Made by a program: the position numbers and the translations under genes
The notes under the pieces: generated by a model
What the model was told of the DNA's origin: nothing
The model's input: the letters and a program-made list of their open reading frames with translations, nothing else
Database searches by the model: none
In this document: piece after piece, positions 6,071-23,111 of the stretch
Layout: each line of letters opens with the position of its first letter
How positions within the stretch are numbered: position 1 is the first letter of the stretch
DNA from: a virus
Reading direction: 5' to 3' (one strand)
Virus record (IMG/VR): IMGVR_UViG_3300010153_000099
Location: 1 to 25,348 of that record
DNA: 25,348 bases

Positions 6071-8873
6071 ATGTTGATGAGTCCCATTTAAATACTATTG
6101 AAGTATTAGTATCTCCTGGCCAAACTGGAGTAGTTACTTTTAAAGCTATTATCTCGCCTTTAGTTATAGAATTAGAACCAGTAACTCCTGATGTAAAATC
6201 CTCATGATGCGTTATATCATCAGCTATATCTACTGTAGTTCCTTTGGTCATATATACTACGCCTGGAACCTCTGTTCCGTCTGATGATTTATATAATTTC
6301 CATTCTATCTCTCCATCCAATGCAACTTCAGAACGAAATGTAGCTTTTATTATTTCTCCATCATATGGAGCTACCATAGCTACATATTCATTGTAATTAG
6401 TTGTAGAAGTTCTCTCTATTACATACCCAGGCAATGGAATAAAGTTCCCAGTAGCAGTTGAATAAAAGTTACAAACTCTAATTTCATGAAACTCAGAACT
6501 AGCACCTCCTCCTGACAATGAATTTCCACTTGTAATTTGAATATCCTGACCACTCTCATTAGTATAATATAAATCAGGTGTTACATTGTTCTTTACCCAT
6601 AATTGGCCATAATTAGTTACCGAAGTAACAGGGCCATTTGATTGCATTATAAATAAGGGGACTTGACTCTCTAATTTATCATCTTTAAATGAGAACGTAT
6701 CACTATCATCTCTACATACCAATATCCCATCACTATCTGTATAAATCCTATCATTATTTGCATCACTCCCAAATACAAGTCCATTTGCACCTTTTAAATT
6801 CAAAGAATCCTCTATAGTAACATAAGAAGTGTCCGAATCTAATGACATCATAGTTGCCCCATCAACAGCCATTAATAAGCGATTTTGTTGGTCATTTTGA
6901 ATATAAATATCACCAGTTCCCAATGCTCCATCAAAACATAATTTTGAAGTGGCATTTATACCTATATTCATATTGCCATTCATACCCATAAGTCTAGTAT
7001 AATTATTTGCATCACTTGAAGAACTCCCAGCTGGGGTAACATTAAAAATAATACCACCGCCTGCGCCTGTGCCTGTACCAGCACCACCGTAAAGTTGCAA
7101 TCTATATCCAGGCTCATTAGGGCCAGACCTTGGAGGAGATTGTATTATACCATGCACTCCAGCAGAGCCAACTTCTAGAGTATCTCCTGCTATTTTGACC
7201 TCTAGACCTGTAGCATTACCTATAGTAATATCTGAATCAATATTAGCTAATTCAGTTTCTAATTCTGCTGTGCTTTTTATTAGAATTTGGTCAGTATGAG
7301 CTAAAGTCCCTGTGTAATCAGGAAAAGTCACTGTCCTGTTATCTGTATGGTTAGATACTAGAGTTAAAGTTTTATCACTAGTAGCTCCGTCAAAATCGAA
7401 TGTTATATCACGATTTCCATTAGTTCTAAGTATAATAGGATTAGTTGAAGATTGAACAATTACTTTTGCATTGAGCTGTAAATTGCCACCTAAAGTAGGA
7501 GAACTATCATCCTGTATACTTAAATTAGAATCTAACACTACCTCTCCTGTAGCATCAGGGAATGTTATACTCCTATTGTCTGTAACATTAGATATTAAAG
7601 TCAACCTTTTGCCTGATGTAGTCCCATCAAAGTCTAACCAGAGTTCTCTATCTGTATTGCATTTAAATTGTACTGCATCGGTTCCTGTTATATCTCCTAT
7701 AGAATAACTTCCTCCACCAGGATTAGTTTTTAAATCTCCTCCTAATTGAGGAGCGCTATCATTTCCAATTTCTAATGTTTCGTCTAAAGTAATAGTTCCT
7801 GCTGTATCTGGAAAGGTATAAGTTCTATCTAAAGTGTTTTCAAAAGACAATGTCGCTTTTTTAGTAGCTGTAGCTGCACTCATATCCAAAGTAACAAATT
7901 TTCCATTTTCAACAAATTCTATTAAACCTGTTCCTTTTGAGGCAATACTTAAGCCAATATTAGTATCACCACCTTTTGCAAGGACACTTGGACCAGAACC
8001 TGTTGCTGAATTTGAAATTTGAATATAGTTTACTGGAGAAACTGCATCTCCAACAGTATGAAATGATAATAATTCATCTCCAAAAGAATCTAATATAGGA
8101 TTACTTTCATCAATGCTTGAACCAGCAGAGACTGTTTGCCAGGTTCCATCCTTTCTTAAAAATTGATTAGAATGAGTACCTGACCCTGCAAGGACTAATC
8201 CAGCAGCATATGAATTGCCTGAACCCATATTTTCATTAGGGACAATCCAACTACCATCCTGTCGTAAGAACTTTGTAGTTCCTGATTCACCAGGATTGGG
8301 TACTAATCCATCAGCACTATTTCCAAAGGTCGAATTAGTTGCTAATCCTGCCTCAGAAGCGCTTTGATTAATCCATTTACTTGAACTTGAATCGTATGCT
8401 AAAATATCATCATCAGCAATGCCTGTAATAGTTGTATCTGTTAAGTCAGAAACTGTTGATGAGCCTGAGAAAAGCGTATTTAAAGTTGATTGCTCTACAG
8501 TCTTAGTAGATGCTTGAGAGCCCCAAAAGAAACCTGTAGTATCAGTTCCATGAAAAGTATCTAGAAAGTAAAAATTGTCATCATCTATAACAATTACATT
8601 ATGGTATCCATTGTATTGAGATTGTCCTGATTTTATGTAAACATTTAGATTACTATATAATATCCCGTGGTCAGTTTTGTTTGCTTTTATAGCGCCAGTT
8701 ACAGTATTTCCATAGTCTGAAAAAGTTACTGATTGAGGTATTTCAACTACAAATAAAGATTCCGCAGGTACACTCGAAACTGTTTCTGCTTCAATTATAT
8801 TTACATCTCTAGCATCGGCTAATTTAAAGGCTCCACCGCCTGCTTGTGTTAACTTCCCGCCTATACTTGGCAT
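6069..8873 (-). CDS. Long modular tail fibre / adhesin
   Basis: 934 residues with no membrane segment. Residues about 58-117 form a small beta module (QYNGYHNVIVI, NFYFLDTFHGTDTTGF), also seen in the fibre at 11778-12443. Then come a GIADDDILAYDSSSSKW module near 155 and two FLRxDGxW motifs (FLRQDGSW, FLRKDGTW) near 202 and 238. Three repeats of about 80 residues centre on TFPDxxGT at about 355, 435 and 515. The C-terminal ~140 residues contain NYNEYVAMVAPYDGEIIKA and KLYKSSDGTEVPG, resembling jelly-roll tips of other phage fibres. The mosaic of repeats with a globular tip fits a trimeric receptor-binding fibre. No S74-type self-cleaving chaperone motif was seen. Start: AAGGAG five bases before the ATG. 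Confidence 0.85.
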   Translation of the reverse strand: MPSIGGKLTQAGGGAFKLADARDVNIIEAETVSSVPAESLFVVEIPQSVTFSDYGNTVTGAIKANKTDHGILYSNLNVYIKSGQSQYNGYHNVIVIDDDNFYFLDTFHGTDTTGFFWGSQASTKTVEQSTLNTLFSGSSTVSDLTDTTITGIADDDILAYDSSSSKWINQSASEAGLATNSTFGNSADGLVPNPGESGTTKFLRQDGSWIVPNENMGSGNSYAAGLVLAGSGTHSNQFLRKDGTWQTVSAGSSIDESNPILDSFGDELLSFHTVGDAVSPVNYIQISNSATGSGPSVLAKGGDTNIGLSIASKGTGLIEFVENGKFVTLDMSAATATKKATLSFENTLDRTYTFPDTAGTITLDETLEIGNDSAPQLGGDLKTNPGGGSYSIGDITGTDAVQFKCNTDRELWLDFDGTTSGKRLTLISNVTDNRSITFPDATGEVVLDSNLSIQDDSSPTLGGNLQLNAKVIVQSSTNPIILRTNGNRDITFDFDGATSDKTLTLVSNHTDNRTVTFPDYTGTLAHTDQILIKSTAELETELANIDSDITIGNATGLEVKIAGDTLEVGSAGVHGIIQSPPRSGPNEPGYRLQLYGGAGTGTGAGGGIIFNVTPAGSSSSDANNYTRLMGMNGNMNIGINATSKLCFDGALGTGDIYIQNDQQNRLLMAVDGATMMSLDSDTSYVTIEDSLNLKGANGLVFGSDANNDRIYTDSDGILVCRDDSDTFSFKDDKLESQVPLFIMQSNGPVTSVTNYGQLWVKNNVTPDLYYTNESGQDIQITSGNSLSGGGASSEFHEIRVCNFYSTATGNFIPLPGYVIERTSTTNYNEYVAMVAPYDGEIIKATFRSEVALDGEIEWKLYKSSDGTEVPGVVYMTKGTTVDIADDITHHEDFTSGVTGSNSITKGEIIALKVTTPVWPGDTNTSIVFKWDSST
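7286..7890 (-). repeat. Three ~240-bp protein-coding repeats in the fibre
   Basis: Within the 934-residue fibre, three similar units lie near 7780-7890, 7540-7640 and 7286-7404. Each encodes a Thr/Leu-rich strand pair followed by TFPD and a Gly-Thr/Glu turn: TYTFPDTAGTITL, SITFPDATGEVVL and TVTFPDYTGTLAH. The intervening segments share DFDGxTSxKxLTL. The copies have diverged at the DNA level, so the repeat is old or held at the structural level. Confidence 0.7.
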
Positions 8874-8885
8874 TTTTGCTCCTTA

Positions 8886-9236
8886 TTAAAGAGGTGTTGT
8901 CCCATCAAGATACTTTCCAACAGCTGCAGATGCAGAAGTTCCTCCCGCAGCAGCGCTTGTATTCACTGGAAATAATTGCCTGTCTACATTAGTCGTTAAA
9001 TGAGCTATTATATTAGCTCTTATAGTAGCTACATTATCACTAGGTGCTGTATCGAAATCATTCCATTTATAAATAACTCCCAATTCATCTTGGACTTCTA
9101 CTTTCCAATATGCAAATTCAGATATATCATTGTCATTTGTTCTTTCAAATTTTAATACCCTACATCTATTGGCTTCTCCAGAAGTAAATTTTTTTAAAGA
9201 TATTGAATCAGGAGCTGTTACTATATATCTAGACAT
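8886..9236 (-). CDS. Small adhesin-companion protein, copy B
   Basis: 116 residues from the ATG at 9236 (MSRYIVTAPD). An upstream in-frame TTG at 9242 is possible but has no better ribosome site. The core FAYWKVEVQDELGVIYKW followed by IRANIIAHLTTNVD matches the core of the protein at 12459-12842 (QYWIFQVRDVEGNYYEW, IRSAIMTHLQENVD), so the two are paralogues. The C-terminus is Ala/Gly/Ser-rich. The ATG overlaps the stop of the adhesin gene at 9229-10482 by eight bases, implying coupled translation and probably joint assembly. I infer a small structural partner of the adhesin, such as a joint, cap or chaperone. No named family was recognised. Confidence 0.75.
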   Translation of the reverse strand: MSRYIVTAPDSISLKKFTSGEANRCRVLKFERTNDNDISEFAYWKVEVQDELGVIYKWNDFDTAPSDNVATIRANIIAHLTTNVDRQLFPVNTSAAAGGTSASAAVGKYLDGTTPL

Positions 9237-10482
9237 TATCAACCCAATTTATTTCAGTAAATGAGAGTACTATTGCATTATAATACATTTCGTTACTATA
9301 CATTACATAGTAATCTTCTGCAAAGCCATGTTCATTTTCAATATTTACAGTTCTAATGGTAAAATCAGACGCCATATTACCAGGCATACCTTCTGCTGTA
9401 ATAAGGTTTATTTCTTTATTTGAATTATCCCAACTCGCTTTAGGATATGCAAATAAAGGGTATGAAACACCAGGCATATCAATTTCTAGAGGAGTATCTT
9501 CCATCCAAGGGTAAGGTTTACCCATAATATCTCTAAATGTTTTATAATAAGCCATCTCAGTAGTATTTTGCCTATTAGCTTGACAGGTATTAGTTATAGC
9601 CCATTGAATGTCATCATCATTCGTTGGAAATGATTGTCCATTATCATTATACGCTAAATAGCCATAATACGCATTATTACGCCATTTAATAGCTGGAAGG
9701 CTTCCATACCATCCCATTTGATTGTGTGTTATTTGAACTTGAGTTCCTTGGCCATTATCTTCTGTACAATAAAGCCCAGTACCACTTACTTGCCCAGCTT
9801 CATTTTCCTCACCTGCTTCAATATTAAAAACAGAATTACCATTATGAGAGCCAGATATTTTGTCTGAAACTATTTTATAGCTAAATTCAGCATCTCTTCC
9901 ATTGTAATCATTAGTATTATTGCCACTTGTACTTATATTTTCAGGGTCAGTATCTTCTGTTGAAGTTTCAGTGTTTTGATTTATGTTTGGACCTAATATC
10001 CAATCCAAACCATGTTGGAGCTTATTTTGTGGTATATTGTCTGTATAATAATACTCTCTAAATTGACCATATGGAGTTCCAACATCAATACCACCAGTAT
10101 CCATACCTGTATAGATAAATTTCGCCCTTACGCCAGTGAGACCTCCATCTCCAATTAATCGCATCTGATTATGGTCTATTCTATTTGCACCAATATAATA
10201 CCCATCAAAGTGAATCGCAGGTTCGCCAATAGGATTGTAATTTACAACTTGTTGCCATACAAGGTCAGAATGAGATAGCATATGAACCCTACCTGTATCT
10301 ACTCTTTGATAAATAGAAGGATATTGAGAATCACCATCAGTCGTTACTATATATATATCCCCAATTTGAGGCATTAAAGTTGTATAATTATCTTCATCAG
10401 GTATAGTAGTCCCTCTCTTTACATCATCTAGAGAGTCTAAATCAAAGTCTCCTTCGGTAAGGAGTTTTTTCCAACCTGGCAT
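9229..10482 (-). CDS. Large adhesin / fibre, copy B of duplicated module
   Basis: 417 residues. The N-terminus MPGWKKLLTEGDFDLDSL is a short anchoring-type motif like that of other fibres here (compare AGWRKIIHSE). Residues 36-70 (LMPQIGDIYIVTTDGDSQYP) match residues near 330 of the protein at 12842-14734. The C-terminal ~90 residues (YPLFAYPKASW, then FTIRTVNIENEHGFAEDY, ending in a Trp-containing tail) match that protein's C-terminus. The pattern of an AYP-like strand, a Gly-rich turn and a Tyr-rich final strand recalls receptor-binding tips of marine phage fibres. The gene starts in a TAATG overlap, with GAGG about seven bases upstream. It is the larger member of a duplicated two-gene unit. 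Confidence 0.78.
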   Translation of the reverse strand: MPGWKKLLTEGDFDLDSLDDVKRGTTIPDEDNYTTLMPQIGDIYIVTTDGDSQYPSIYQRVDTGRVHMLSHSDLVWQQVVNYNPIGEPAIHFDGYYIGANRIDHNQMRLIGDGGLTGVRAKFIYTGMDTGGIDVGTPYGQFREYYYTDNIPQNKLQHGLDWILGPNINQNTETSTEDTDPENISTSGNNTNDYNGRDAEFSYKIVSDKISGSHNGNSVFNIEAGEENEAGQVSGTGLYCTEDNGQGTQVQITHNQMGWYGSLPAIKWRNNAYYGYLAYNDNGQSFPTNDDDIQWAITNTCQANRQNTTEMAYYKTFRDIMGKPYPWMEDTPLEIDMPGVSYPLFAYPKASWDNSNKEINLITAEGMPGNMASDFTIRTVNIENEHGFAEDYYVMYSNEMYYNAIVLSFTEINWVDNV

Positions 10483-10715
10483 TACTCTACCTCTTCAGTC
10501 GAATTAGATAGCCTTTCATGCATCGCTCTTAACTTTATTAAGGTGGAATTAGCCTGAGCTATATCCGAACCTAAAATATGAGTTTGAGACAAATACCTTA
10601 TAATGAAATCTGTATCCCTTATATTTAGTCCTATTTTATCATATTCAACCCTTTTTTGGGGATTCTTAGGATTATTAGGGCCCATTTTAGGTGAGCCCTT
10701 TGTAATCAAAGCCAT
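10482..10715 (-). CDS. Small helical protein within the fibre cluster
   Basis: 77 residues; family not recognised. A basic, proline-rich N-terminus (KGSPKMGPNNPKNPQKR) is followed by a helical C-terminal half (ANSTLIKLRAMHERLSNS). The opening MALITKGSPKMG weakly resembles MTLINKRAPRTG at the start of the fibre at 12842-14734, so it may be a stand-alone attachment segment. AGGGG lies six bases before the ATG, and its TAA overlaps the ATG of the next gene. A linker or small assembly protein for the next adhesin is a reasonable inference. Confidence 0.7.
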   Translation of the reverse strand: MALITKGSPKMGPNNPKNPQKRVEYDKIGLNIRDTDFIIRYLSQTHILGSDIAQANSTLIKLRAMHERLSNSTEEVE

Positions 10716-10730
10716 TTATTTCCCCTTATA

Positions 10731-11762
10731 TTACACTCCTGAATAGAAGTACATATCTCCATCATTAGAATTATAAGCAAACCCACCAGCTACAGTATCA
10801 AGACCAGTTATAGCGCCTCCTGCAGCTTGAACTTGGATACCAGCTATCCCAATAGGAGTCACATCATTTCTACTATACATAACCCATTCAAATGGAGATA
10901 CAGCAGTATCATTCATCCAAAAAATACCTGATTTCTTGGTAGTAGCTGCTCCATTATCTACTGTAATACCTGTTAGATTCGCACCAGCATTATTTGAACT
11001 ACCTTTTCCTAGAATAATCTCTTTATCTTCTACTTCTAATTCAGTAGTACTTATTGTAGTAGTGTCACCATTTACAGTTAAATCACCTGTTACAGTCAAA
11101 TCACCACCTACAGATGTTGTTGATGATGCATTACCTAAAGTAACACCATTATCATTGGTCGTATTAATAAGGATAGCTCCACCTGAATTAGAAAAACTCA
11201 TTTGTGAAGTTGCATTACAAACCATAGTTGTACCATCAAATTGTATAGAAGAATCAACATCAAGAATATCAACATTTGTAGTACCAGCTACATCTAAATC
11301 ATCAGCGATAACAACATTACCATCAGCAATATCAAGTGCAGTTTGAGTTGCTGTACCAGTAATTGTAAGCTTTTCATCACTTGAATCCCATACCATAGAA
11401 TCACCAGCTGTGGCACTATAAAATGTCACATCTAATCCAGAACCATCCGTCCCTACAGTTAAACCACCTGAAGCTATACTCAATCCAGTACCTGTAGCAT
11501 AGCTTAAATTAGTTCCTTCATTCGTGAATGTAGAATCGGCATTTTTAAAAGTTATAACTCCATCATCAGTCAATGCTGAAACATCTCTAGCACTACCACC
11601 TGAATTATCAGTTACGAATTGCTTAGTAGCCGCATCAGTAGTTGCTACTGGCGTTCCTAAATCTGTTATTTTTTGATTCCCCATAGAAAAAGCACCTGTT
11701 GGCGTTGCCAAATCAGATATCGTGTTTTCACTATGGATTATCTTTCTCCATCCTGCTGCCAT
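10731..11762 (-). CDS. Modular tail fibre
   Basis: 343 residues. The N-terminus MAAGWRKIIHSENTISDL is followed by LGTPVATTDAATKQFV (about 35-50), a phrase common in phage fibres. Repeated beta segments follow (LTVTGDLTVNGDTTTI), then the classic TELEVEDKEIILGKG strand and a C-terminal FEWVMYSRNDVTPIGIAG / DGDMYFYSG end. The composition (Thr, Gly, Asp, Val; few charges) suits a trimeric beta-helical shaft. There is no recognisable enzyme or binding domain, so it may be a shaft or a simple fibre whose tip comes from a neighbouring gene. AAGGAG lies six bases before the ATG. The 136-codon plus-strand ORF inside it is a shadow. Confidence 0.82.
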   Translation of the reverse strand: MAAGWRKIIHSENTISDLATPTGAFSMGNQKITDLGTPVATTDAATKQFVTDNSGGSARDVSALTDDGVITFKNADSTFTNEGTNLSYATGTGLSIASGGLTVGTDGSGLDVTFYSATAGDSMVWDSSDEKLTITGTATQTALDIADGNVVIADDLDVAGTTNVDILDVDSSIQFDGTTMVCNATSQMSFSNSGGAILINTTNDNGVTLGNASSTTSVGGDLTVTGDLTVNGDTTTISTTELEVEDKEIILGKGSSNNAGANLTGITVDNGAATTKKSGIFWMNDTAVSPFEWVMYSRNDVTPIGIAGIQVQAAGGAITGLDTVAGGFAYNSNDGDMYFYSGV

Positions 11763-11777
11763 ATTTATCTCCTTTTA

Positions 11778-12443
11778 TTAAATATTAATTCCTAAATAAA
11801 AATCTGTTCCATCAAAATATAAACCACCCAATTTTGCTGATGGTTCTGATGCCAAAGCTGGTAAGGTTAGGACTCCATCACTAGCTGAGATACTAAAAAC
11901 CTCATCAGAACCGTTGTATAATTTAAAAACATTATTGCTATTTTCAAACTTAAAAGAAAAATCATTATTTGTTCCAAATGAAAGACTTACATCATCAGGA
12001 TAATTTTTTTGTTGAGTATACGCAGCTAAAGTCTGGGCTAAAATATGCTTAGTATTACTCTGGTCTCCCGTTGCACCTATATCAACCAAAAAAGCATCTC
12101 CATCTGAAAGTGAAGAAGCGGGAGGGGGAGCTGCTCTATACCCTGCTGCATTAGTTGATTGATATGATGTATTTATAACAAAGTAATTGCTAGAAACGCT
12201 ATCTACAGTTTGATTCCCAGTATAATAATCATTATTCCCTGAAAATTCAACCATATTAACTATATCTCCTGCTTCGAATCTATGGTCGTTAAGATTTACT
12301 TTTGTTTTTACTCCGCCACTATTAGATTCAAATGAAGATATTGCATGTGAAGAAGGAATGCTAATATCTCTTCCCTTAACAAGTTGCCATCCAGTGTCTC
12401 CACCTCCACCTAATGGTTCTAAAAGTCCTGGATATGCAGGCAT
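11778..12443 (-). CDS. Short fibre-type protein
   Basis: 221 residues. A glycine-rich opening (EPLGGGGDTGWQLVKG) leads to a small beta module at about 45-102 (FEAGDIVNMVEFSGNNDYY, SNYFVINTSYQST). This aligns with residues 58-117 of the 934-residue fibre. Then comes SLSDGDAFLVDIG, and the protein ends in LGGLYFDGTDFYLGINI, a short closing motif also seen in modified form in the fibre at 10731. AAGGAG lies six bases before the ATG. It is probably a short fibre or an adaptor onto which a longer fibre stacks. Function is inferred from shared modules and position. Confidence 0.78.
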   Translation of the reverse strand: MPAYPGLLEPLGGGGDTGWQLVKGRDISIPSSHAISSFESNSGGVKTKVNLNDHRFEAGDIVNMVEFSGNNDYYTGNQTVDSVSSNYFVINTSYQSTNAAGYRAAPPPASSLSDGDAFLVDIGATGDQSNTKHILAQTLAAYTQQKNYPDDVSLSFGTNNDFSFKFENSNNVFKLYNGSDEVFSISASDGVLTLPALASEPSAKLGGLYFDGTDFYLGINI

Positions 12444-12458
12444 ATTACACTCCTTTCA

Positions 12459-12842
12459 TTATAATGTAGCATTATCTACCATTGTATTTCCGACTCCTTC
12501 AATTGCACCACCTGAAACAGCGCTATTATTATAATCTTCTGATATTTCATTTAATTGTGAATAAGGCAATTTATCTACATTTTCTTGCAAATGAGTCATT
12601 ATAGCGCTTCTAATTTGCGATTTATTTGCAATAGAGGATAAGGAATGGTCTTTCCATTCATAATAATTGCCCTCTACATCTCTAACTTGAAAAATCCAAT
12701 ATTGAAAAGTATCAGAATTATCAATTTTATGTCTGAATTTATCAGCTTTTATTAAAACAGATTGATTTGCATCTTCAATAGAAAACTTTGAAAGTCCTGC
12801 ATCAGGAACTGTAATTACTGATTTATTTATCAGAGCAGTCAT
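12459..12842 (-). CDS. Small adhesin-companion protein, copy A
   Basis: 127 residues from the ATG at 12842 (MTALINKSVITVPD). That ATG overlaps the TAA of the preceding adhesin gene (TAATG), which favours it over the TTG at 12857. The core QYWIFQVRDVEGNYYEW plus IRSAIMTHLQENVD is shared with the protein at 8886-9236; their outer parts differ. In both places this small gene directly follows a large adhesin with the same C-terminal domain, so the pair behaves as one unit. I infer a structural partner of the adhesin. The family is not recognised. Confidence 0.75.
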   Translation of the reverse strand: MTALINKSVITVPDAGLSKFSIEDANQSVLIKADKFRHKIDNSDTFQYWIFQVRDVEGNYYEWKDHSLSSIANKSQIRSAIMTHLQENVDKLPYSQLNEISEDYNNSAVSGGAIEGVGNTMVDNATL

Positions 12843-14734
12843 TATGAGGTCCACCAATTTGTTGTATGAGTAGCTTGTGGATTAGAATACCAAATTTTAT
12901 ATTGCTCTATAGCACCATGTGGATTTGTATAATTCAAGACAGTTACATTGAAATTACTAACAACATTATCACCTGGGCTATTTCCATTATCAGACCGTAT
13001 CTCTGTTATATCGGGAGTTGGATGCGTCCCTGTTACTCCAATCGGTATTCCAAACCATATATATCCTAGAGTCGGACAAGTGATGCTTTTTCGAGTCCAT
13101 TGATTATAAACATTGCTTGTATTTAATGTTTCATTATTATAACTATCATTACTTATTATAACATCAGATGGAGGTTGGCTTGAGGCTCCACAAATTCTGT
13201 AATTCCTAAAATAAATCTTTTTATAACCAGCATCAGCATCTACACTCCAAGATTGCCCATTTATACTTTCAAAGCACTCATCCATAATATCGTCAAGCCT
13301 AGTATATCCATCTCTCAAACTAGGATTAGTATTTGCAGATGCTCCCACAATACTAGAAGCATTAGAATGCAAATGATTTGAAGCTGAACTTAAATCAATC
13401 TCTACAGTAGCATTTGTATTTGCATTAGTATTATATGTCCTAAATCTAACTTTAGGAGTCCCGCTATCGATAGTCCCTATTACTTCTGCATATTGAACTT
13501 TAGCAAAAAGAGTATCTGATATCCCTATTGGTATTTGACCAGGGTCATAAGATGCACCGCCTAGTGTTTCAGTAAAATAAACATGAGTACACCTAGGGTC
13601 TGGGTCTGGAGTTGGAGCCGAAGATGTAGAGTAATTATTAGTTTTTACATAAAAAGCTCTTTCAGCCGCTGTTCTAATGTGAATTTTTGGATAACTAGAA
13701 CTACCATCACCTGTATCTTGAACATAAATATCACCTATATTAGGCATCAATTCATCATTAGTAGAATCCCAATATGTACTAACTGTATCTGTACCAAAAT
13801 TAACCCTAGTATTTATTTGTAATGTAGCTCCGCCACCTGGGTTTGTTATTGTTGCATTTTCAAAATTAAATTGACTTATATTGGAATAATCGGTACTATT
13901 GTTCACATCTTGGACATCAGGAATCGTATCTGTAGAATGAAAGGTAATAGTTTCATTACTAGTTGCGAATGACATTCCACTACCAGCTGAAAATGTTAAT
14001 GTATCTGACGTTTCTTGAGCTGTTACTGTTGCCTCTCCTGCTATTGCTATATGCTTAAAAGCATCTCCTCCACCAGCTCCGCCAATAGCTGCTCCATTAA
14101 ACTTTAAAGTTCCATTTTCATTATAAAGCTTATTAGTTGTAACTCCTGGCGCATCGTTTGAAGGCAATATTAGCCCATTAGAAGCTTGTTCTACTGTTAC
14201 AGCAACATTACTATCTGATGTACTAAAATCAACGTCTCCTATTACATTTTTAGTTCTAAGCCTATTTGTAGGTTCTCCGCTTGTTGTTCCTACAACTAAG
14301 ACACCTTTTCCACTGCCATTTTCACTAGGTGTTGCATCTATTATAACGCTTGAACTCCCCGATGCAGCAGCTGCTATAGTAGCTACTCCTGGACTACCAA
14401 ATGATATAGCCAGGGCATTGTCGGTATTTACCCATTCAAATGTCTCACTATCTTTATTATAGGCCATCATAGCATAATTATCAGGATTACGTGGCATAGT
14501 AACTGCCTTATCCCAACCTTCGCTTGTTCTAAATTCTAATTTATGCTTTGTTGTTGAGTATTTAGAGCTAGAATCTTGAATTACTCTTATATCACCTTCT
14601 TTACCCTTGCCCTCTATTGACTGGCTTTCTCCTTGATTAACCGAATTGATTACATCGTTTATATCGTCATAAATAGTTTGTATTGTTCTATTTAAATCAC
14701 CTGTTCTTGGGGCTCTTTTATTGATTAAAGTCAT
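12842..14734 (-). CDS. Large adhesin / fibre, copy A of duplicated module
   Basis: 630 residues. The N-terminus MTLINKRAPRTGDLNRTIQ precedes a short helical segment and GKGKEGDIRVIQ. Then come beta-rich fibre modules (residues 100-320). At about 328-367 LMPNIGDIYVQDTGDGSSSY matches the start of the adhesin at 9229-10482, and the last ~70 residues (FNVTVLNYTNPHGAIEQY) match that protein's end. The region between has many Asn, Ser and Tyr and differs strongly between the copies, as expected for a receptor-contacting part. It starts in a TAATG overlap with the nozzle-like gene, so it may attach directly to that tail part. No enzymatic motif was seen. Confidence 0.8.
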   Translation of the reverse strand: MTLINKRAPRTGDLNRTIQTIYDDINDVINSVNQGESQSIEGKGKEGDIRVIQDSSSKYSTTKHKLEFRTSEGWDKAVTMPRNPDNYAMMAYNKDSETFEWVNTDNALAISFGSPGVATIAAAASGSSSVIIDATPSENGSGKGVLVVGTTSGEPTNRLRTKNVIGDVDFSTSDSNVAVTVEQASNGLILPSNDAPGVTTNKLYNENGTLKFNGAAIGGAGGGDAFKHIAIAGEATVTAQETSDTLTFSAGSGMSFATSNETITFHSTDTIPDVQDVNNSTDYSNISQFNFENATITNPGGGATLQINTRVNFGTDTVSTYWDSTNDELMPNIGDIYVQDTGDGSSSYPKIHIRTAAERAFYVKTNNYSTSSAPTPDPDPRCTHVYFTETLGGASYDPGQIPIGISDTLFAKVQYAEVIGTIDSGTPKVRFRTYNTNANTNATVEIDLSSASNHLHSNASSIVGASANTNPSLRDGYTRLDDIMDECFESINGQSWSVDADAGYKKIYFRNYRICGASSQPPSDVIISNDSYNNETLNTSNVYNQWTRKSITCPTLGYIWFGIPIGVTGTHPTPDITEIRSDNGNSPGDNVVSNFNVTVLNYTNPHGAIEQYKIWYSNPQATHTTNWWTS

Positions 14735-17700
14735 TATCTTGCAGACCTATCTCTATATAGTATTCCTATAGAATGGACAATCCCAGTTACATTTGTAAAT
14801 TGCAATTGAAGCCATTTAGCCTTTCTATTTGAACCACTAAGATTGTAAACAACATTATCAGTATCATCCGAAAATGTTTTAGATACTTCTCCTTTTGAGC
14901 CTTGAATTACAGGTAATGTCCCCTCTACTAAAGAGTCACCTGTTAATCTTACTTTTTTAAAGAACTTATCTTGAGTATCTCTTCCTATTGTTAGCTTCTT
15001 GCTAAACCAACTGAAATAACTCCTATTAGAAGAAGTAGATAAACTCATAAGTCTATCACCTACTGTAGCAGATTTATGAGAGTAAAACACTTCATTTCTA
15101 GGAGATATCACAGACGATAGAAATTCTTGATTGGTACTCCATAAATCCCATCTATTTTTAATTACATTGTATATATATGCTCTACTTGCATTTGTTGAGA
15201 TTACAAAAGAATTTAATTTAGCACTATAAGAAACAATAGGCTTAAAAGTATTTTCATCTAACAAATCTTTATATCCTATTTGAAATTCTCTATCTACAGA
15301 TATTGGAGATGATATAATAGTTGGATATTCAGTTGTTTGTAAGTATATATTATATTTATCAGCAAAACACATGCCTACATCGGCAGCGAATACAGAATCC
15401 TGACTAAGACAGCCTATACCTTCATATATATCTTCTAATATTAAATTAGAATTAATTACATACATATTGCTTTCGTCCCAAGCATATATCCTTCCCCTAA
15501 AAGCCTTCATAGCAACTGGAATTGTAGGTAGTTTTAAATAATTAATAGTCCAATCAAATTGACTAAAATTACCAGGATTTGATTTAAATATATATGATGA
15601 TGCATCTGTTATATTTCTATGCCCACAATTACCAACATATAAACTTCCATCTAAAACAGTAGAAATAGTATAATTGACTGTTGTATTTCTCAATATTTCG
15701 CTCATATTATTTATAGATTCATATGTAGCCCCACTAACTCCCTCATCAATACAGACCTTTGTATATACATTAGTTCCTGATACTAAAAGACTAGTCCATG
15801 TGCTATCCATTTTTACAGACTTTACTAATCGATATAATTTTGCAGTGCTATCTGTTCTATATAGATTTAAATGCGTAATTCTTGAACTTATATTTGAAAC
15901 TTTTAATTTTAAAGATATATAACTATAATCATGAGTTCCATCTGTCGCATTGTGAGTATCAGGATAGTCTTTGCTTGCATTAAATTTCCAATGACCTAAA
16001 GTTAAAGGGCTTTCTTGGAATCCATCATATAAAAATGATATTTTATAATAATAGTCTTGTGCGCATTTAAATACAGTCCCCGTGCCTGGGTCACTAGGAG
16101 TTATTAATGATAGAAAGGAATCATTTGTGCCAAATTTATATTTCAATGGAGTTAAAGCTCTTCCAAAGTGATTTAAAGTGAAATTTTCATCACTACCAGC
16201 ATTTGTCTCTCCATCTATAGGAGATGTATTATTTATTGTGCTTATTTCGGTTCTTATATCTATATTTATAAGACCCATAGAGCTATCTCTGTCAAACATA
16301 GCTATTCTAGCTGTTGGAACTGTACTCATAACCACATCTGTAGATTGATTGTCAACTCCTGATGCATTGTAATCTTCTATTACCATTATAGAATCTTGCA
16401 TTCTAGGGTGTTGGTTATCTACATTTGTATGGCCATAAGATTTTCCATCGCCATCAAAATTTATTTGAAATAACGTATCATTAAAGTAACCCATTGGATT
16501 TAATAAGTTTAAATCTGGGTCGCTATTTAATGCTCCATTAACTTGCCTAATATCAATTGCGAATAATGAATTAAGGAAATCAACAACACCTCCTCCATCA
16601 TCATGACTTATAGGGTTGTTAAATGAATAGAATAATGCAGACCTGCCAGTATTAATAGTGGTATTAGCACTTAAACCTTGTAATCCAATTTGCTTTGGCA
16701 TCTGAGCACCATTAAAATCCATTGCCTTCATTGATGACGTAGTATCATCAAACCACCTTAATTGCCTTACGATATTATCAGGCGAACTAGATTTGAAACC
16801 TGAGAAGTCATGACTAACCTCTGTATCATAATCAGTGTCAGCACCGAGACTCTTTCCTGTAGTCCAATCTTCTGTATCGTAATAACTTAAAGCTCCATTG
16901 TTTCCTTTAAAACTAGAAATATACATTACAACTTTATTTTCAAGATTAACCCTGTATTCATTACTAGGATTGCCACCTGTATAAGTATAACCATTACTAT
17001 CAACTGTATCGCATATCAATCCGACAAAGCTACCTCCATCATCATCTGTTGCTATATCTACTTTATTTATCATCCATACACCATCTGAGCCATTTATAAA
17101 AGGATTTGTTTGGCTTCCGATTTTAGCCATACATCCAACAACAGCATTTCCATCTGAATCTGTATCACAGTCAATTCCATATTCATCTGTTAAATCTACC
17201 AAAGAATACTCTAAAGGGCATATATTAATGACACTATTCTTCGCTAATGGGCCAGCACCTGACCATGAATTATTAACAGCGCTTGTTCCAGTCCTCCATT
17301 TTGTTCCGCAATTATCACCTGTATAATTCCCAAAAACAGATGAAGTAAACATTCCTATATTCTTCGCAATAGTATAAACACCAACACCATCAGTCTGAGT
17401 GCTTCCACCTGCAGTTAGATTTGTAGAATTAAATTCAACACTTTCATCACTTTCTGCACTTTCGTCATACCTAGAAACTCTTAATAATGATTGTGTTTCC
17501 CAAATATACTCATCCTTTTTAATTCTCCATGAATAAAGATTTGAACTATAATCATAAACATTTGTCAAATCATAATAACCACTATCATCATCAAGGCTAA
17601 GAGTCCCCATATGCTGAGGAGTTTTATCTAATAAATTTATAGTAGTACTTCCTCCATCTTCATTTATATCTTGAATATTTTTTGCTGCATATAACCATCT

Positions 17701-19236
17701 ATGAGTTCTGTAGTTTCCTACATAATGAGCTAATGAACTAGGCCTCGAATCATTGTCTGAATCGTCAGCTAATGCCTCAGAGGCAGGCGTTGTTCTAAAC
17801 CAATGTTTCCTTGAATCCTCTTCTGGAGAAGAGGGTACAATTAAAAACCATAAAATAGACTTGGAATCATTACCAGTTTCTAATATATCTCCAAATCTTG
17901 CAAACCCTTGCCAGTCTTTGTCAAATAAATCATGAGTCCAATTCATCTCTTTGTTTATTTCAAATGTAAAATTATCTACTGTTTTTGTTATGCTTAAAGA
18001 AGGAGCTAGGGTCCAATCTATAGGATTAGAATCGTCATTTACTTTTAATTTATATAATTTACCAGGACTTGTTGTTTCTTCATGGTAATCAGCAGCTTCA
18101 AATGAATTATAATCATCCGAATCGACTTCTCCTGGACCACTATATGCCCATATATAAGAATCTGAACCACCAACAGATACGCATTCGCATATAATATCGA
18201 CATTAAATGGCAATCTTGAACAAATATAACTACTACTAAGGTTTGCAGGGGTTCCAGTATTATAATCTATTCTCCAAATATATGGCTGCCCTTTTGCGCA
18301 TGCATAAAGAGCATCATCATCATTTGATAATTTTATTATTTTTGTAAATTTAGCTAAAGGTTGTATTTTATCAGCTGGTTTTAATTCATTATTACCCGTA
18401 AAATAAGTATCATTAGATTCTCCAAATGATGTATTATCTAAGTATCCAGAAAATAAAGGACTAGCATTCTTCCCTCTTCCAATAATCGCATGTCGACCCT
18501 TTTTTGTAATGTCAACTTTATCAGTAAAGATGTCGGGTCCCAAGACTTTAGTCTTATCATTATAAAAATCTGATATTCTATTCAATCTATTTGTATGCCC
18601 ATCAACATATAAAAGGTCTTGCTGAGTATCCTTGGAAATAAAGCTCATAGACTTACTCATAATATTGTGATTCTTACCAGCTGTTGTTACTTCAATAGTA
18701 AATCCACTATCTCCAACATCAACTCCCGCTACAACTATTCCTTTAGCTTGATTTGTTACAGTTACTACTCCGCTATTATGAGTAGCTTCAAAAATAACTC
18801 CAGACCTTCCAGTAGACTGTACAACACTACTAACTGCTAATCCAACTATACTTGCAGCAGCATCAGTCGCATTTATGCCTATTCTTATAGGAATTTCATT
18901 TTGAGTCGTAGGAGGAGATGTACCTAGGTGTTGTATATCAAACCAAAAAACGTAAGTATCATTTGGAGTAGATATTTTAAAATACTTATTATTCAAATTG
19001 GAAGATACCATCTCTACACAAGTAATTTCAACAATCTGAGCATTGCTATTTGAAGCTGAGCCAAATCCATTCTCTGTAAATACTTCATCTGAATATCTGC
19101 CAACAATCATACCATCGCCATTATCAGCAGATACATCTAGTGAATACGGAGTAGCATCTTCGGCTAAATCAGTTTGGTCTGGAGATGTTACTATTCCAAC
19201 ATTAAATCCTTTTAGTTCATGTAGCTTTTTAGGCAT
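14734..19236 (-). CDS. Giant tail nozzle-like protein
   Basis: 1,500 residues, all soluble. The opening (FNVGIVTSPDQTDLAEDATP, then SADNGDGMIVGR) follows the pattern of podoviral tail-tube/nozzle proteins (T7 gp12 and P22 gp10 type): few residues, a list of nodes, then 'd-GxhxxR'. Near 1242-1300 AFRGRIYAWDESNMYVI and GCLSQDSVFAADVGMCFAD resemble the propeller blades of that group. The last 80 residues (KFFKKVRLTGDSLVEG ... SIGILYRDRSAR) end in the usual 'siGixYR' strand. It is about twice the normal length; the extra sequence lies mainly between residues 350 and 1100 and is Asp/Ser/Tyr-rich. Its place before the fibre array supports a tail-hub role onto which fibres attach. An alternative is a host-surface beta-propeller adhesin. 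Confidence 0.72.
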   Translation of the reverse strand: MPKKLHELKGFNVGIVTSPDQTDLAEDATPYSLDVSADNGDGMIVGRYSDEVFTENGFGSASNSNAQIVEITCVEMVSSNLNNKYFKISTPNDTYVFWFDIQHLGTSPPTTQNEIPIRIGINATDAAASIVGLAVSSVVQSTGRSGVIFEATHNSGVVTVTNQAKGIVVAGVDVGDSGFTIEVTTAGKNHNIMSKSMSFISKDTQQDLLYVDGHTNRLNRISDFYNDKTKVLGPDIFTDKVDITKKGRHAIIGRGKNASPLFSGYLDNTSFGESNDTYFTGNNELKPADKIQPLAKFTKIIKLSNDDDALYACAKGQPYIWRIDYNTGTPANLSSSYICSRLPFNVDIICECVSVGGSDSYIWAYSGPGEVDSDDYNSFEAADYHEETTSPGKLYKLKVNDDSNPIDWTLAPSLSITKTVDNFTFEINKEMNWTHDLFDKDWQGFARFGDILETGNDSKSILWFLIVPSSPEEDSRKHWFRTTPASEALADDSDNDSRPSSLAHYVGNYRTHRWLYAAKNIQDINEDGGSTTINLLDKTPQHMGTLSLDDDSGYYDLTNVYDYSSNLYSWRIKKDEYIWETQSLLRVSRYDESAESDESVEFNSTNLTAGGSTQTDGVGVYTIAKNIGMFTSSVFGNYTGDNCGTKWRTGTSAVNNSWSGAGPLAKNSVINICPLEYSLVDLTDEYGIDCDTDSDGNAVVGCMAKIGSQTNPFINGSDGVWMINKVDIATDDDGGSFVGLICDTVDSNGYTYTGGNPSNEYRVNLENKVVMYISSFKGNNGALSYYDTEDWTTGKSLGADTDYDTEVSHDFSGFKSSSPDNIVRQLRWFDDTTSSMKAMDFNGAQMPKQIGLQGLSANTTINTGRSALFYSFNNPISHDDGGGVVDFLNSLFAIDIRQVNGALNSDPDLNLLNPMGYFNDTLFQINFDGDGKSYGHTNVDNQHPRMQDSIMVIEDYNASGVDNQSTDVVMSTVPTARIAMFDRDSSMGLINIDIRTEISTINNTSPIDGETNAGSDENFTLNHFGRALTPLKYKFGTNDSFLSLITPSDPGTGTVFKCAQDYYYKISFLYDGFQESPLTLGHWKFNASKDYPDTHNATDGTHDYSYISLKLKVSNISSRITHLNLYRTDSTAKLYRLVKSVKMDSTWTSLLVSGTNVYTKVCIDEGVSGATYESINNMSEILRNTTVNYTISTVLDGSLYVGNCGHRNITDASSYIFKSNPGNFSQFDWTINYLKLPTIPVAMKAFRGRIYAWDESNMYVINSNLILEDIYEGIGCLSQDSVFAADVGMCFADKYNIYLQTTEYPTIISSPISVDREFQIGYKDLLDENTFKPIVSYSAKLNSFVISTNASRAYIYNVIKNRWDLWSTNQEFLSSVISPRNEVFYSHKSATVGDRLMSLSTSSNRSYFSWFSKKLTIGRDTQDKFFKKVRLTGDSLVEGTLPVIQGSKGEVSKTFSDDTDNVVYNLSGSNRKAKWLQLQFTNVTGIVHSIGILYRDRSAR

Positions 19237-19666: not shown

Positions 19667-19903
19667 TTATCTTTTACTCCAATATCTCTTCCTCGCCTTC
19701 GCTTCAAAACAATTATCAGTACTATCTACAGGAAATAAAACAAATTCATCTTCTGCTTTGTCATAATAAAAGTCACGCTCTTCCCACTTACATACCATTC
19801 CTTCGCTGTCATATGTATCTTCTAATCTAGGATACATACAATTAATACCCTCTCCAAGAGTCATAGATACCGTAACAATTAATATCCAGCTTTCAAATAG
19901 CAT
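19667..19903 (-). CDS. Small exported protein with N-terminal signal or anchor
   Basis: 78 residues. The first ~20 (MLFESWILIVTVSMTLGEGI) look like a signal sequence or membrane anchor. A Cys at 22 follows, but the context (GINC) lacks the small residue usually needed at -1 of a lipobox, so a lipoprotein is unlikely. The rest is acidic and aromatic (EERDFYYDKAEDEFVLF) with Cys at 38 and 65, and a basic end (ARKRYWSKR). It starts in a TAATG overlap with the two-helix membrane protein gene, with AAAGG nine bases upstream. A periplasmic lysis accessory or superinfection-exclusion protein would fit. Family not recognised. Confidence 0.7.
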   Translation of the reverse strand: MLFESWILIVTVSMTLGEGINCMYPRLEDTYDSEGMVCKWEERDFYYDKAEDEFVLFPVDSTDNCFEAKARKRYWSKR

Positions 19904-20343
19904 TATTTCTTACCTTTCTTAAGAGGCTTATCGTCCCCCCAGACTGGATGTTTAGGAGTTTTAGATTCCATTTTCACTCCATTACCACCAATTTTTATTG
20001 TATTTCTATCCATAGATACTTCCATATCTTTAGCAGACTGGTCTTGCAAATGATGCACCAAATCTTTAGCCACTACTGCCAATGGGTCTTCTGGTGCTGG
20101 TGGTACTACCATTCCATTAAGAACATTGATTAAACCTATCGTTATGGTCGAAATAAGGCCTGTTACAACAGCCAACTGAGATTCGCCAAGGAAATAAGCT
20201 GCTGCTATAAGCATACAAGCCATTATAAGGATAGTAGGTACACTAAATACGCCTACCCAAAACCTAAGTTTATCAATCATAAGGCGTTTAGCTGCCATTC
20301 TTTCCTTCTTTTTTTGAGCTATTTCTTCTTTAGACATTCCCAT
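19903..20343 (-). CDS. Two-helix membrane protein, holin candidate
   Basis: 146 residues. The N-terminus is highly basic (KKKERMAAKR). Two membrane helices lie at about 28-53 (FWVGVFSVPTILIMACMLI) and 57-80 (LAVVTGLISTITIGLINVL), and the tail is soluble and charged, with HLQDQSAKDMEVSMDRN and a Lys-rich end. Two closely spaced helices with both ends probably cytoplasmic match class II holins, though the ~65-residue tail is longer than usual. GGGGAG lies about nine bases before the ATG at 20343; a second ATG is two codons on. The ATG lies inside the end of the metallophosphoesterase gene (14-base overlap). Its place downstream of the peptidase supports a lysis role, but a virion membrane protein is possible. 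Confidence 0.68.
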   Translation of the reverse strand: MGMSKEEIAQKKKERMAAKRLMIDKLRFWVGVFSVPTILIMACMLIAAAYFLGESQLAVVTGLISTITIGLINVLNGMVVPPAPEDPLAVVAKDLVHHLQDQSAKDMEVSMDRNTIKIGGNGVKMESKTPKHPVWGDDKPLKKGKK

Positions 20344-21118
20344 CTATAAGTTCTCCCCATAAGCTAGTCTTTCCATTTATAATCTGAACTATATGCACAG
20401 TAAATTGACCTCCATGATAAAAATCTACTATCGCAAAAGCATGAGCCCAATTAGTAGCTCTATTTTGAAGCCATTGATTAGCCCCGTCAGACATATCTTT
20501 TAAACAACCAATTGACCAGGCTGACTTTGGGCCATCTACATGAGTAACACTCATTTGTTGTAAATCATGCCAATGTCCATACATAATATTAGCTCCAATC
20601 TTTCTTAGATGATTAGAGGTATGATATTGCCCTCCAAATTGATGTCCGTGATAGAAGTATAATTTACCTATTTTAAGCTTCTTTCCCATAGGATGATAGG
20701 TATATCCTCTATCTTTAAGATTTACAGCTTCTTTAAACTTATATTGACTCAAGTAAGGATATTCATCAACAAACATATTTAACCAATTATCATGATTACC
20801 CTCAGTAATGTGCCTATCAGTACATTTTGCTTTATCTAAGGACTTATCTATTTGGTCCATACCCTTATTTACATCTTTAACATCAGTTTCTAAGAGTGGT
20901 ATAATATGCTCTAAAGGAGGTTTTTTCTTTCGTTTATATTTCCAAGCACTAAATTCACTCCATTCTCCGACATCGCCTAAATCTATATAAATATCAGGCT
21001 TAATCCTCTCAATAGCTTTACAAAGAACATTTATAGAGGGCTGATGATGAAGCGGAAAGTGCTTATCAGGCGTTACTATAGCCCTCTTTACTACAGTCTT
21101 TTTCTTGCGTTTAAACAT
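20330..21118 (-). CDS. Calcineurin-like metallophosphoesterase
   Basis: 262 residues. All signature motifs of the two-metal phosphoesterase fold are present in order: DxH (D18-K-H20), GD (G48-D49), GNHD (107-110), HGH (157-159) and GHxH (G181-H-W-H184). These bind two metal ions and hydrolyse phosphodiester or phosphomonoester bonds. The substrate cannot be read from sequence; candidates are nucleic-acid ends, cyclic or dinucleotide signals, or phosphoproteins. The Lys/Arg-rich N-terminus (FKRKKKTVVKR) and YKRKKKPP at about 61-68 could favour nucleic acid. The start is the second ATG, since AGGAG lies six bases before it and touches the first. It is set among lysis and virion genes rather than replication genes, which is notable. 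Confidence 0.9.
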   Translation of the reverse strand: MFKRKKKTVVKRAIVTPDKHFPLHHQPSINVLCKAIERIKPDIYIDLGDVGEWSEFSAWKYKRKKKPPLEHIIPLLETDVKDVNKGMDQIDKSLDKAKCTDRHITEGNHDNWLNMFVDEYPYLSQYKFKEAVNLKDRGYTYHPMGKKLKIGKLYFYHGHQFGGQYHTSNHLRKIGANIMYGHWHDLQQMSVTHVDGPKSAWSIGCLKDMSDGANQWLQNRATNWAHAFAIVDFYHGGQFTVHIVQIINGKTSLWGELIDGNV

Positions 21119-21124
21119 GTACAT

Positions 21125-21444: not shown

Positions 21445-21663
21445 TTACCTTTGAAATAACCATCCTACAAATGCTATTATAACTGCTCCAAAACCTTTGA
21501 ACCAGCTTATTGCATTTTCTGCTTTACGAACTCTACCGTTTATTTTAGATACATCTTCTCTTAAGAATCCTAATTGGTCTTTTGTCCAATCCCTATAAGA
21601 TTCCGTTTCAGAATTATGGCTCATTATCATAGTCTTCAAATCTTCATTAGTGACCTTACCCAT
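21445..21663 (-). CDS. XhlA-like membrane protein, holin or holin partner
   Basis: 72 residues. An N-terminal amphipathic coiled-coil segment (SYRDWTKDQLGFLREDVSK, NGRVRKAENAISW) is followed by one C-terminal membrane helix (FGAVIIAFVGWLF) and ends in Gln-Arg. This is the layout of haemolysin XhlA-type proteins, which sit beside the holin and endolysin in many phages and help disrupt the membrane. Its ATG overlaps the end of the endolysin gene by eight bases, with GGAG nine bases upstream, so the two are coupled. This strengthens the lysis assignment, though the family call rests on layout and short motifs. Confidence 0.75.
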   Translation of the reverse strand: MGKVTNEDLKTMIMSHNSETESYRDWTKDQLGFLREDVSKINGRVRKAENAISWFKGFGAVIIAFVGWLFQR

Positions 21664-22012
21664 ACACTCCTACTCCATTTTTAACATTACCTTTTCCAAG
21701 ATGTATGAAGGTCTTACTAATAGCGATGTCTTTGAAGTATCCCATTCCTGATGCGTGCTGCAAAAGCGAAAACCGCTTATATCTATCGGTACAGTGCACA
21801 TCACATGCAGTCCCGAGAACATGGTCTCCTCTTGAGTTTTTTGATACTTTTTTATTGTGCTCATCACACCTCCATCCTGAATTTATTTTGAAAGGGAAAT
21901 TACATAAGGTTCTAAGTTCTTGTAATTTAGATATAAATTCCTCGTCCATATTGCATTTTTTACAGTGAGAACACTGAAATTCACTAGATTTAAAGTTCTT
22001 AGATAATTGCAT
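21656..22012 (-). CDS. M15-type peptidase, probable endolysin
   Basis: 118 residues. It follows the Peptidase_M15_3 (VanY/D-Ala-D-Ala carboxypeptidase-like) pattern: NFKSSEFQCSHCKKC at the start, INSGWRCDEHN at about 43-53, the zinc motif H64-x6-D71 (GDHVLGTACD), and a second zinc histidine H104 in TFIHLG. Such enzymes cleave peptidoglycan cross-links or stem peptides. Asp replaces the usual Ser before His in the SxHxxG motif (D63). The CxxCxxC cluster at 14-20 is a variant of the CxCGC site of the family and may add a structural metal. It lacks a signal peptide, so release needs a holin. It is followed by the XhlA-like gene. Confidence 0.9.
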   Translation of the reverse strand: MQLSKNFKSSEFQCSHCKKCNMDEEFISKLQELRTLCNFPFKINSGWRCDEHNKKVSKNSRGDHVLGTACDVHCTDRYKRFSLLQHASGMGYFKDIAISKTFIHLGKGNVKNGVGVYG

Positions 22013-22220: not shown

Positions 22221-23111
22221 TTATAAGGCTTTTATTAAGCCTAAAGTTATTAAGTCATTTATTAATGTTCCTAAAACATCTGCTAGCTCTTCAGTGGTTG
22301 TTGAATTTGCATTAAAAGCCCTATCTGTAGTATGATTTGTAACTTGCCAAGGCGTTTGACTTAGTGCCTCAAAAGTATTCGCTTTTACCCTTCCTGTAAC
22401 TGTAATGCCATCAGCATCTACTTGCAATCTAGTATTAGCACCAGCTGAAGACGCTCCATTTCTAATACCAACTTGCCAAGCTCCTTTTTCAGAATTATTT
22501 GTATCATCTACTGATATGGCTTCAATTTGAACAAGAGTTCTTTCAGTACCAGAATCATTTTCATATTTATGTTGAGCTACTGATATGGTCTGAGTAGCTA
22601 ATTCTGTATTATCAGTTTTTCTAGTAAGCATATAAGGATATCGACCACTGATAGCAGTATTCTCTATTAATTCAAAAAAGGGACCAAGAGCTTCGTATGT
22701 ATTAAGCTTATAACCACTACCAGCAGAATTTAATATAGTAAATCCAGATGCGTCATTATCAGTTACTGTAAAATTACTTTGTCCTGTTACATCTAATCCT
22801 GTTAAAGTTCCAACAGAAGTTATATTTGTTTGCGCTGCTGCTGTGGCTGGTAATTGAAAAGTTCCAGTAGGAGCAGTATCAGGAGCGAGTCCAGTTATAG
22901 TAGAGACAGTATCTGCATTTCCTGTAACATCTCCTATTAAATTTCCAGTAGAAGTTATTGTTCCATCTACTGTTAATTCACCAACAGCAAAAGTTAGCAA
23001 ATCTGAATCATTTTTATGGCCAATAGTAGCACCATTTATTTTTATACTATCAACAGTCAAATCACCTGTTATTCCTATCGATTCTGTATAACTATCTTCT
23101 GTAAATGCCAT
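22221..23111 (-). CDS. Modular tail or head fibre
   Basis: 296 residues. Beta-repeat phrases fill the N-terminal half: GDLTVDSIKINGATIG, TGNLIGDVTGNADTVSTITG and TNITSVGTLTGLDVTG, all typical of phage fibre shafts. The middle (SGRYPYMLTRKTDNTELAT) is a globular segment. The C-terminal ~45 residues (QVTNHTTDRAFNANSTTTEE, then LADVLGTLINDLITLGLI) match a closing motif that recurs in many phage and prophage virion proteins; its Asn/Thr 'DRxFxAN' turn and final hydrophobic helix suggest a trimer cap. AGGAG lies five bases before the ATG. The gene is separated from the main fibre array by the lysis cassette and follows the neck genes, so it could be a collar or head fibre. Confidence 0.82.
   Translation of the reverse strand: MAFTEDSYTESIGITGDLTVDSIKINGATIGHKNDSDLLTFAVGELTVDGTITSTGNLIGDVTGNADTVSTITGLAPDTAPTGTFQLPATAAAQTNITSVGTLTGLDVTGQSNFTVTDNDASGFTILNSAGSGYKLNTYEALGPFFELIENTAISGRYPYMLTRKTDNTELATQTISVAQHKYENDSGTERTLVQIEAISVDDTNNSEKGAWQVGIRNGASSAGANTRLQVDADGITVTGRVKANTFEALSQTPWQVTNHTTDRAFNANSTTTEELADVLGTLINDLITLGLIKAL

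Follow-up and report, generated by a model that had tools for sequence, protein, structure and literature searches.

Why does a phage carry eight genes at a place where its relatives carry a single tail-fibre gene, and what exactly has been repeated there? The question is raised by a 25,348-nucleotide (nt) stretch of viral DNA (IMG/VR record IMGVR_UViG_3300010153_000099, positions 1 to 25,348; the whole stretch is referred to as the window), in which the fibre cluster comprises eight genes, whereas two relatives, G002 and G003, have one. An earlier sequence-only reading described here a large adhesin with a small companion protein (P0004 and P0003, copy 1) and a second, diverged pair (P0002 and P0001, copy 2), derived by tandem duplication. 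The genes were found at the coordinates which that reading had given, on the minus strand throughout (Table 1). Judged from sequence comparison, the repeated unit is composed of three genes, encoding the adhesin, the small protein, and a fibre with the N-terminus MP..GGG..L..RD, and the eight-gene cluster may give the phage more than one way of gripping its host.

The repeated three-gene cassette

The alignments identify two homologous adhesin and small-protein pairs in the window, as the sequence-only reading had claimed. The small proteins P0003 and P0001 share 33% identity (E value of 5e-16), with an alignment score reached by none of 1,000 shuffles, and the profile comparison including their orthologues was significant as well (hhalign 96.9%, E 1.9e-10). 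The adhesins align between residues 329-470 of P0004 and 36-170 of P0002 (28% identity over 146 columns, E 1e-7) and again near the C-terminus (587-618 and 367-397); their profile-profile alignment was also significant (hhalign 87.6%, E 3.5e-6; 0/300 shuffles). In a multiple alignment, the likeness covers most of P0002 but only residues ~305-630 of P0004. Both small-protein motifs read as previously described, YW-x-(F/V)-x-V-x-D-x2-G and IR-x2-I-x2-HL-x2-NVD. The adhesin motif LMPxIGDIY does too; however, the position ascribed to it, near the front, holds for the short adhesin P0002 only (residues 36-44), since in the long adhesin P0004 it occupies residues 329-337. The C-terminal motif is indeed common to both adhesins, but with the spacing N-x-HG-x4-Y rather than x3. 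The overlap of the small gene's ATG with the adhesin stop is real in both pairs, 1 nt (12842) in copy 1 and 8 nt (9229-9236) in copy 2. It is ordinary for this genome and no special mark, because 10 of the 24 junctions among the window genes listed overlap.

Sequence searches covered 2.9 million viral contigs. The small protein retrieved one close relative, IMGVR_UViG_3300030329_005429 (G001, 53,976 bases), which carries both copies and all intervening genes in the same order as the window, with both pairs at the same places. A 1500-amino-acid (aa) protein encoded directly upstream of the fibre genes was taken as tail-nozzle-like from its place and size, having no convincing Pfam, PHROG, or PDB match; it finds G001 (68-69% identity), G002 (42%), G003 (41%), and a fragment, G004, which ends inside this gene and is uninformative on the module. 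A scan with the adhesin alignment added a further record, G005 (IMGVR_UViG_3300030329_001746, 18,577 bases), and no records besides G001 and G005 came up when the five-row small-protein alignment or the fibre N-terminus served as the query. Profile matches to G000, G001, and G005, which are alignment rows, arise partly by construction and were used for copy counts only. The small gene is present in three of the six records, window included (window, G001, and G005; G004 is not judgeable), and its five copies are a lower bound. In G002 and G003, the small protein, the adhesin profile, and the P0007 profile find nothing. A 26-residue match to an Oscillospiraceae contig, obtained in a genome collection with a four-row small-protein alignment, was dropped as chance; the neighbouring genes look like ordinary bacterial metabolism.

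G005 revealed the extent of the repeated unit. In this distant phage, whose portal and capsid proteins are 32% and 33% identical to those of G001, a trio is present once and encodes an adhesin (334 aa), a small protein (130 aa), and a fibre (>1728 aa), every start overlapping the preceding stop by one base. The G005 small protein matches P0003 (36%, E 3e-21) and P0001 (29%, E 7e-11), and its adhesin matches P0002 (E 2e-8) and P0004 (E 7e-8); residues 1-60 of P0002 match the G005 adhesin too (0/1000 shuffles). The N-terminus of the third-gene fibre is 45% identical to P0007 over 152 aa (E 5e-38) and resembles that of P0008 (z 8.0, 0/1000 shuffles; blastp just E 0.007). The two-gene unit proposed earlier is therefore to be extended by the GGG fibre seen in the G005 trio. 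The proteins said to lie between the copies do measure 221, 343, and 77 aa, but the 221-aa P0007 belongs to the repeated unit. The order adhesin, small protein, GGG fibre is identical in all five copies (window, G001, and G005). The survey of relatives likewise placed the small gene after the adhesin C-terminus in 5/5 copies, and none was found standing alone, the gene context of a structural relative, A0A8D9C9A7 (see below), not having been seen.

Two observations weigh against this extension. The direct match between P0007 and P0008 is weak (blastp E 0.007, 3/1000 shuffles; hhalign E 0.043, or 0.002 once G005 is added), so that it is mainly through G005 that the two third genes can be linked. 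Moreover, the small gene occurs in just three records, so the constant order may reflect shared ancestry.

Matches elsewhere were few. The G005 third gene has three Laminin_G_3 matches (E 3.5e-24), a lectin-like fold that fits a carbohydrate-binding fibre, and blastp found no match between the end of this fibre and the P0008 tip. Residues 160-253 of P0008 match a BcepNazgul protein annotated as a tail fiber (E 2e-8), with a weaker second match in Pelagibacter phage HTVC202P (E 2e-3), and the G005 adhesin has one weak match in a Bacteroides phage (E 0.2). Among named phage records, there was no match for P0003, P0004, P0005, P0009, the G005 small protein, or the G005 fibre N-terminus. We recognised no description of the three-gene cassette in the open-licence literature.

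Possible origins of the cassettes and of the split fibre

Only one fibre gene, of 679 and 806 aa respectively, comes after the nozzle-like gene in G002 and G003, and a gene homologous to a 211-aa gene of the window comes next. Residues 1-120 of the G002 fibre are 67% identical to residues 1-120 of P0004 (anchor hhalign E 2.2e-40), residues 137-173 match P0008 216-252, and residues 257-679 align with P0008 514-934 (39%, E 1e-68; tip profile E 1.9e-23). P0008 itself has no match to the P0004 anchor. Window positions 8229-14374, ~6.1 kilobases (kb), thus separate two fibre parts that almost adjoin in G002. The G003 anchor agrees with P0004 as well (52% over 165 columns); a point against a simple split is that in blastp the G003 fibre matches P0008 in two short stretches only.

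As read from these alignments, the ~6.1 kb would have been either gained between the fibre halves in the window or deleted in G002 and G003, and the comparison itself gives no direction. That the cassettes are ancestral and that the single-gene state arose by a deletion fusing anchor and tip is a serious possibility, to which we give a little less than even weight. Loss is mildly favoured because the more distant phage G005 carries one cassette, and phage DT530(1) is described as having had its two fibre genes fused by a deletion (PMC4728585). On the other hand, four records, two per state, and one distant record cannot root gain versus loss, and such modules may move between phages.

Nor are the two copies clearly the product of an in-place duplication. 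For the small protein, the alignment scores are 179 between copy 1 and G005, 134 between copies 1 and 2, and 102 between copy 2 and G005; the corresponding scores are 131, 110, and 98 for the adhesin and 309, 68, and 80 for the fibre N-terminus. Because copy 1 is nearer to G005 than to copy 2 for all three genes, the tandem duplication put forward in the sequence-only reading is not supported; by these scores, either the split between the two copies would be older than that between copy 1 and the G005 cassette, or copy 2 would have changed faster. We consider a tandem duplication within this lineage, followed by divergence of both copies, rather unlikely. The order and orientation of the copies are the same and their spacing is similar (15 and 12 nt from small gene to following fibre in copies 1 and 2, respectively), and faster change of copy 2 could mimic the observed ranking; the ranking nevertheless points the other way.

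The module may also have been exchanged later. Divergence at four-fold sites between the window and G001 is 0.46 in the nozzle-like gene (162/349 sites), falls to 0.13 in P0006, P0005, P0002, and P0001 taken together (44/345; Fisher p 6.6e-23), and rises again downstream; without P0006, the dip is 31/187 (p 1.7e-12), both p-values being descriptive because the genes were chosen after the profile had been seen. The dip suggests a later exchange of the module. Speaking against it, the dip is patchy and deepest in P0006, where composition or local constraint may contribute.

The small protein as a putative adhesin partner

The first 96 residues of the small protein are predicted to fold into a short helix, three strands, and a 15-residue helix (mean predicted local distance difference test score [pLDDT] of 79.9); the full-length model (pLDDT 47) was set aside. 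Beyond the folded core extends a GG-containing C-terminal tail that is aligned in all five small proteins. The small protein has no Pfam or PHROG match and no convincing PDB match. The PDB fold search gave nothing at E 0.001 or better, and in a second PDB fold listing the best hit (Z 4.0) was a chain of the small ribosomal subunit, although families missing from that listing may still match. A profile search of PDB sequences with the small protein, the adhesin, the fibre N-terminus, and the nozzle-like protein returned nothing convincing. Proteins of the Tfa and T4 gp38 kind are tail fibre assembly proteins; P0001 and P0003 have no Pfam match to this family at E up to 1, and a similarity of fold may still exist. 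Foldseek found one clear viral relative, A0A8D9C9A7 (BFVD; E 1.7e-6, 30% identity, TM-score 0.69), from an uncultured marine phage; this protein is uncharacterised and, at 97 aa, can hardly accommodate the C-terminal tail, if at all.

Conservation between the window and G001 bears on what the small protein does. In copy 2, the small protein is 90% identical with a ratio of nonsynonymous to synonymous substitution rates (dN/dS) of 0.24, compared with 76% and 0.61 for the adhesin. Within the copy 2 adhesin, residues 201-250 are 40-56% identical and residues 376-400 are 92% identical, with 53% in the last 17 residues. Copy 1 is without such contrast (small protein 86%, dN/dS 0.20; adhesin 87%, dN/dS 0.15). 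Because the small protein of copy 2 is kept while its adhesin changes, it is unlikely to be a specificity part, and its conservation fits a structural or assembly role better.

Collectively, these data suggest that the small protein is likely a dedicated adhesin partner, acting as a connector or a chaperone. We favour the connector because the GGG fibre follows the small gene in 5/5 copies; a chaperone role is nearly as likely, and the lack of a match between the small protein and any functional family counts against the connector. In the chaperone alternative, a credible one that we place at roughly a third, the small protein would be a folding chaperone dedicated to the fibre and encoded after it, remaining outside the virion or serving as a temporary cap. 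Alteromonas phages A5 and V22 carry dedicated fibre chaperones in one host recognition module that is spread among distantly related phages (PMC10579305, seen in part). As there, a small fibre partner gene adjoins the fibre gene (here directly 3′ of the adhesin in 5/5 copies), and the known pairs share this layout; the adhesin C-terminal part is relatively conserved (adhesin 2, 376-400) and its middle variable. There are also differences: the core as modelled, which combines a sheet and one long helix, seems unlike the helical body with a central beta-hairpin described in the accessible portion of that paper, the unit here includes a third fibre gene and occurs in two copies, and the small protein has no Pfam chaperone match. 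A chaperone role also leaves the conserved third gene unexplained. Even if the small protein were merely a chaperone, its predicted fold would seem to differ from the chaperone folds described there.

It is improbable that the small protein is itself a receptor-binding tip capping the adhesin trimer, as was proposed for small proteins whose genes follow that of the tail spike in Dhillonvirus and Littlefixvirus (PMC12309495, as far as the source was available). In these two genera and in Traversvirus, the spike gene is followed by that of an unannotated protein of ~11 kDa, which is proposed to join the spike tip. Size and place agree with the receptor-binding proposal. However, the proteins described there have an immunoglobulin (Ig)-like fold, and our model, a three-strand sheet with a helix, contains no Ig-like sandwich; furthermore, the small proteins are 86% and 90% conserved between the close relatives against 76% for adhesin 2, the opposite of what a specificity part would be expected to show.

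Returning to the connector, we tentatively propose, with confidence just short of even, a host-recognition locus in which the fibre anchor and tip lie apart, with two diverged three-gene cassettes that occupy the stretch between them and extend into the flanking genes. The first adhesin would sit on the tail via its N-terminal anchor, and the small protein, as a dedicated partner of the adhesin C-terminal domain, would most likely dock the next fibre, through its GGG N-terminus, onto the adhesin. Several binding tips would then hang from a single anchor, and the two copies would bind different surface features; two parallel specificities, as previously suggested, are plausible. The small protein could be a virion part or a folding chaperone only. 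That the small proteins found an undescribed family of fibre connectors, and that uncultured SU10/P22-like phages place stackable cassettes between fibre anchor and tip to build branched multi-specific adsorption structures, is a more speculative and doubtful extension. If true, this would constitute a natural route for adding whole receptor-binding arms to a short-tailed phage, and it would name a small protein family whose partner and role are testable with two purified proteins.

Among the closest likenesses by description is the branched lateral fibre of the T5-like phages DT57C and DT571/2, formed by LtfA and LtfB where T5 has a single gene, ltf (PMC4728585, in the part available). In both cases, what a relative encodes as one fibre gene is spread over several genes, the first of which retains the old N-terminal anchor (here P0004 1-120), and further fibres without the anchor bring their own tips. 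In contrast, two genes are involved there and eight here, and a small protein following LtfA goes unmentioned in that part of the source. The window adhesins and P0008 also gave no match to the autocleaving chaperone domain described there at the C-terminus (pfam13884): there was no Pfam match to Peptidase_S74 in P0002, P0004, or P0008, whereas the library used does recognise this domain in other proteins from related loci. None of the likenesses to LtfA/LtfB, A5/V22, or Dhillonvirus was matched by sequence, and they are analogies. We regard the locus as a multi-gene fibre locus of a known kind, plus a small partner without assigned function.

Gene map and neighbouring genes

Table 1. Features of the putative receptor-binding locus in the window.
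Feature	Coordinates	Strand	Description	Relation
Nozzle-like protein	14734..19236	-	1500 aa, directly upstream of the fibre genes	41-69% identity to relatives in G001, G002, G003
P0004	12842..14734	-	630-aa adhesin, copy 1; residues 1-120 fibre N-terminal anchor, ~305-630 domain common with P0002	
P0003	12459..12842	-	Small protein, copy 1, 127 aa counted from ATG	Homologous to P0001 and G005 small protein
P0007	11778..12443	-	221 aa, third gene of copy 1, N-terminus MP..GGGG..L..RDI	G005 third-gene match
P0006	10731..11762	-	343-aa fibre-like protein between copies	
P0005	10482..10715	-	77 aa, between copies; 91% conserved in G001	
P0002	9229..10482	-	417-aa adhesin, copy 2, without long anchor	Homologous to P0004
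P0001	8886..9236	-	Small protein, copy 2, 116 aa counted from ATG	Homologous to P0003 and G005 small protein
P0008	6069..8873	-	Fibre of 934 aa, last member of the copy 2 trio	G002 single fibre, matched by residues 216-252 and 514-934
Stretch between fibre halves	8229..14374	-	Separates the halves of the fibre encoded by one gene in G002	Junction at G002 fibre residues 120 / 137

The two genes between the copies stand apart from the cassettes. P0006 has no significant match to other module genes, and its N-terminus was dropped as a homologue of P0002 (not significant); similarly, P0005 was dropped as a homologue of the P0004 anchor (hhalign E 0.33, 52/1000 shuffles). Inside P0006, an antisense frame is open at window positions 10936-11346 (+), and it is open in G001 too (L003 11512-11904 (-)); it is probably a by-product of composition.

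The window phage is uncultured and probably short-tailed and P22/SU10-like. This assignment was made by kinship with G001, as the portal and capsid genes lie outside the window; G001 encodes a P22-like portal (PF16510, E 2e-69), an SU10-like capsid protein (PF17236, E 2e-32), and a terminase.

Several neighbouring genes deserve mention. At window 22221-23111, a fibre-like protein has its first 123 residues in common with a 400-aa G001 protein (66%), the remainder having no match. A Peptidase M15 family protein (window 21656-22012, E 1e-9) is possibly an endolysin, and G003 has a phage lysozyme gene in the corresponding region. Upstream of the nozzle-like gene, a metallo-phosphoesterase (window 20330-21124; phrog_221, E 5e-23) is among the best conserved proteins, at 91% in G001. 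Two genes that are direct neighbours in the window are separated in G002 and G003 by a gene resembling those of class II tRNA synthetases (PF00152, E 6e-16 and 6e-19; L009 8004-8825 and L010 5195-6019). Finally, a 146-aa protein (window 19903-20343) shares 92% identity with its homologues in G002 and G003 but 79% with that in G001, whereas the genes around it are closer to G001, a sign of mosaic exchange.

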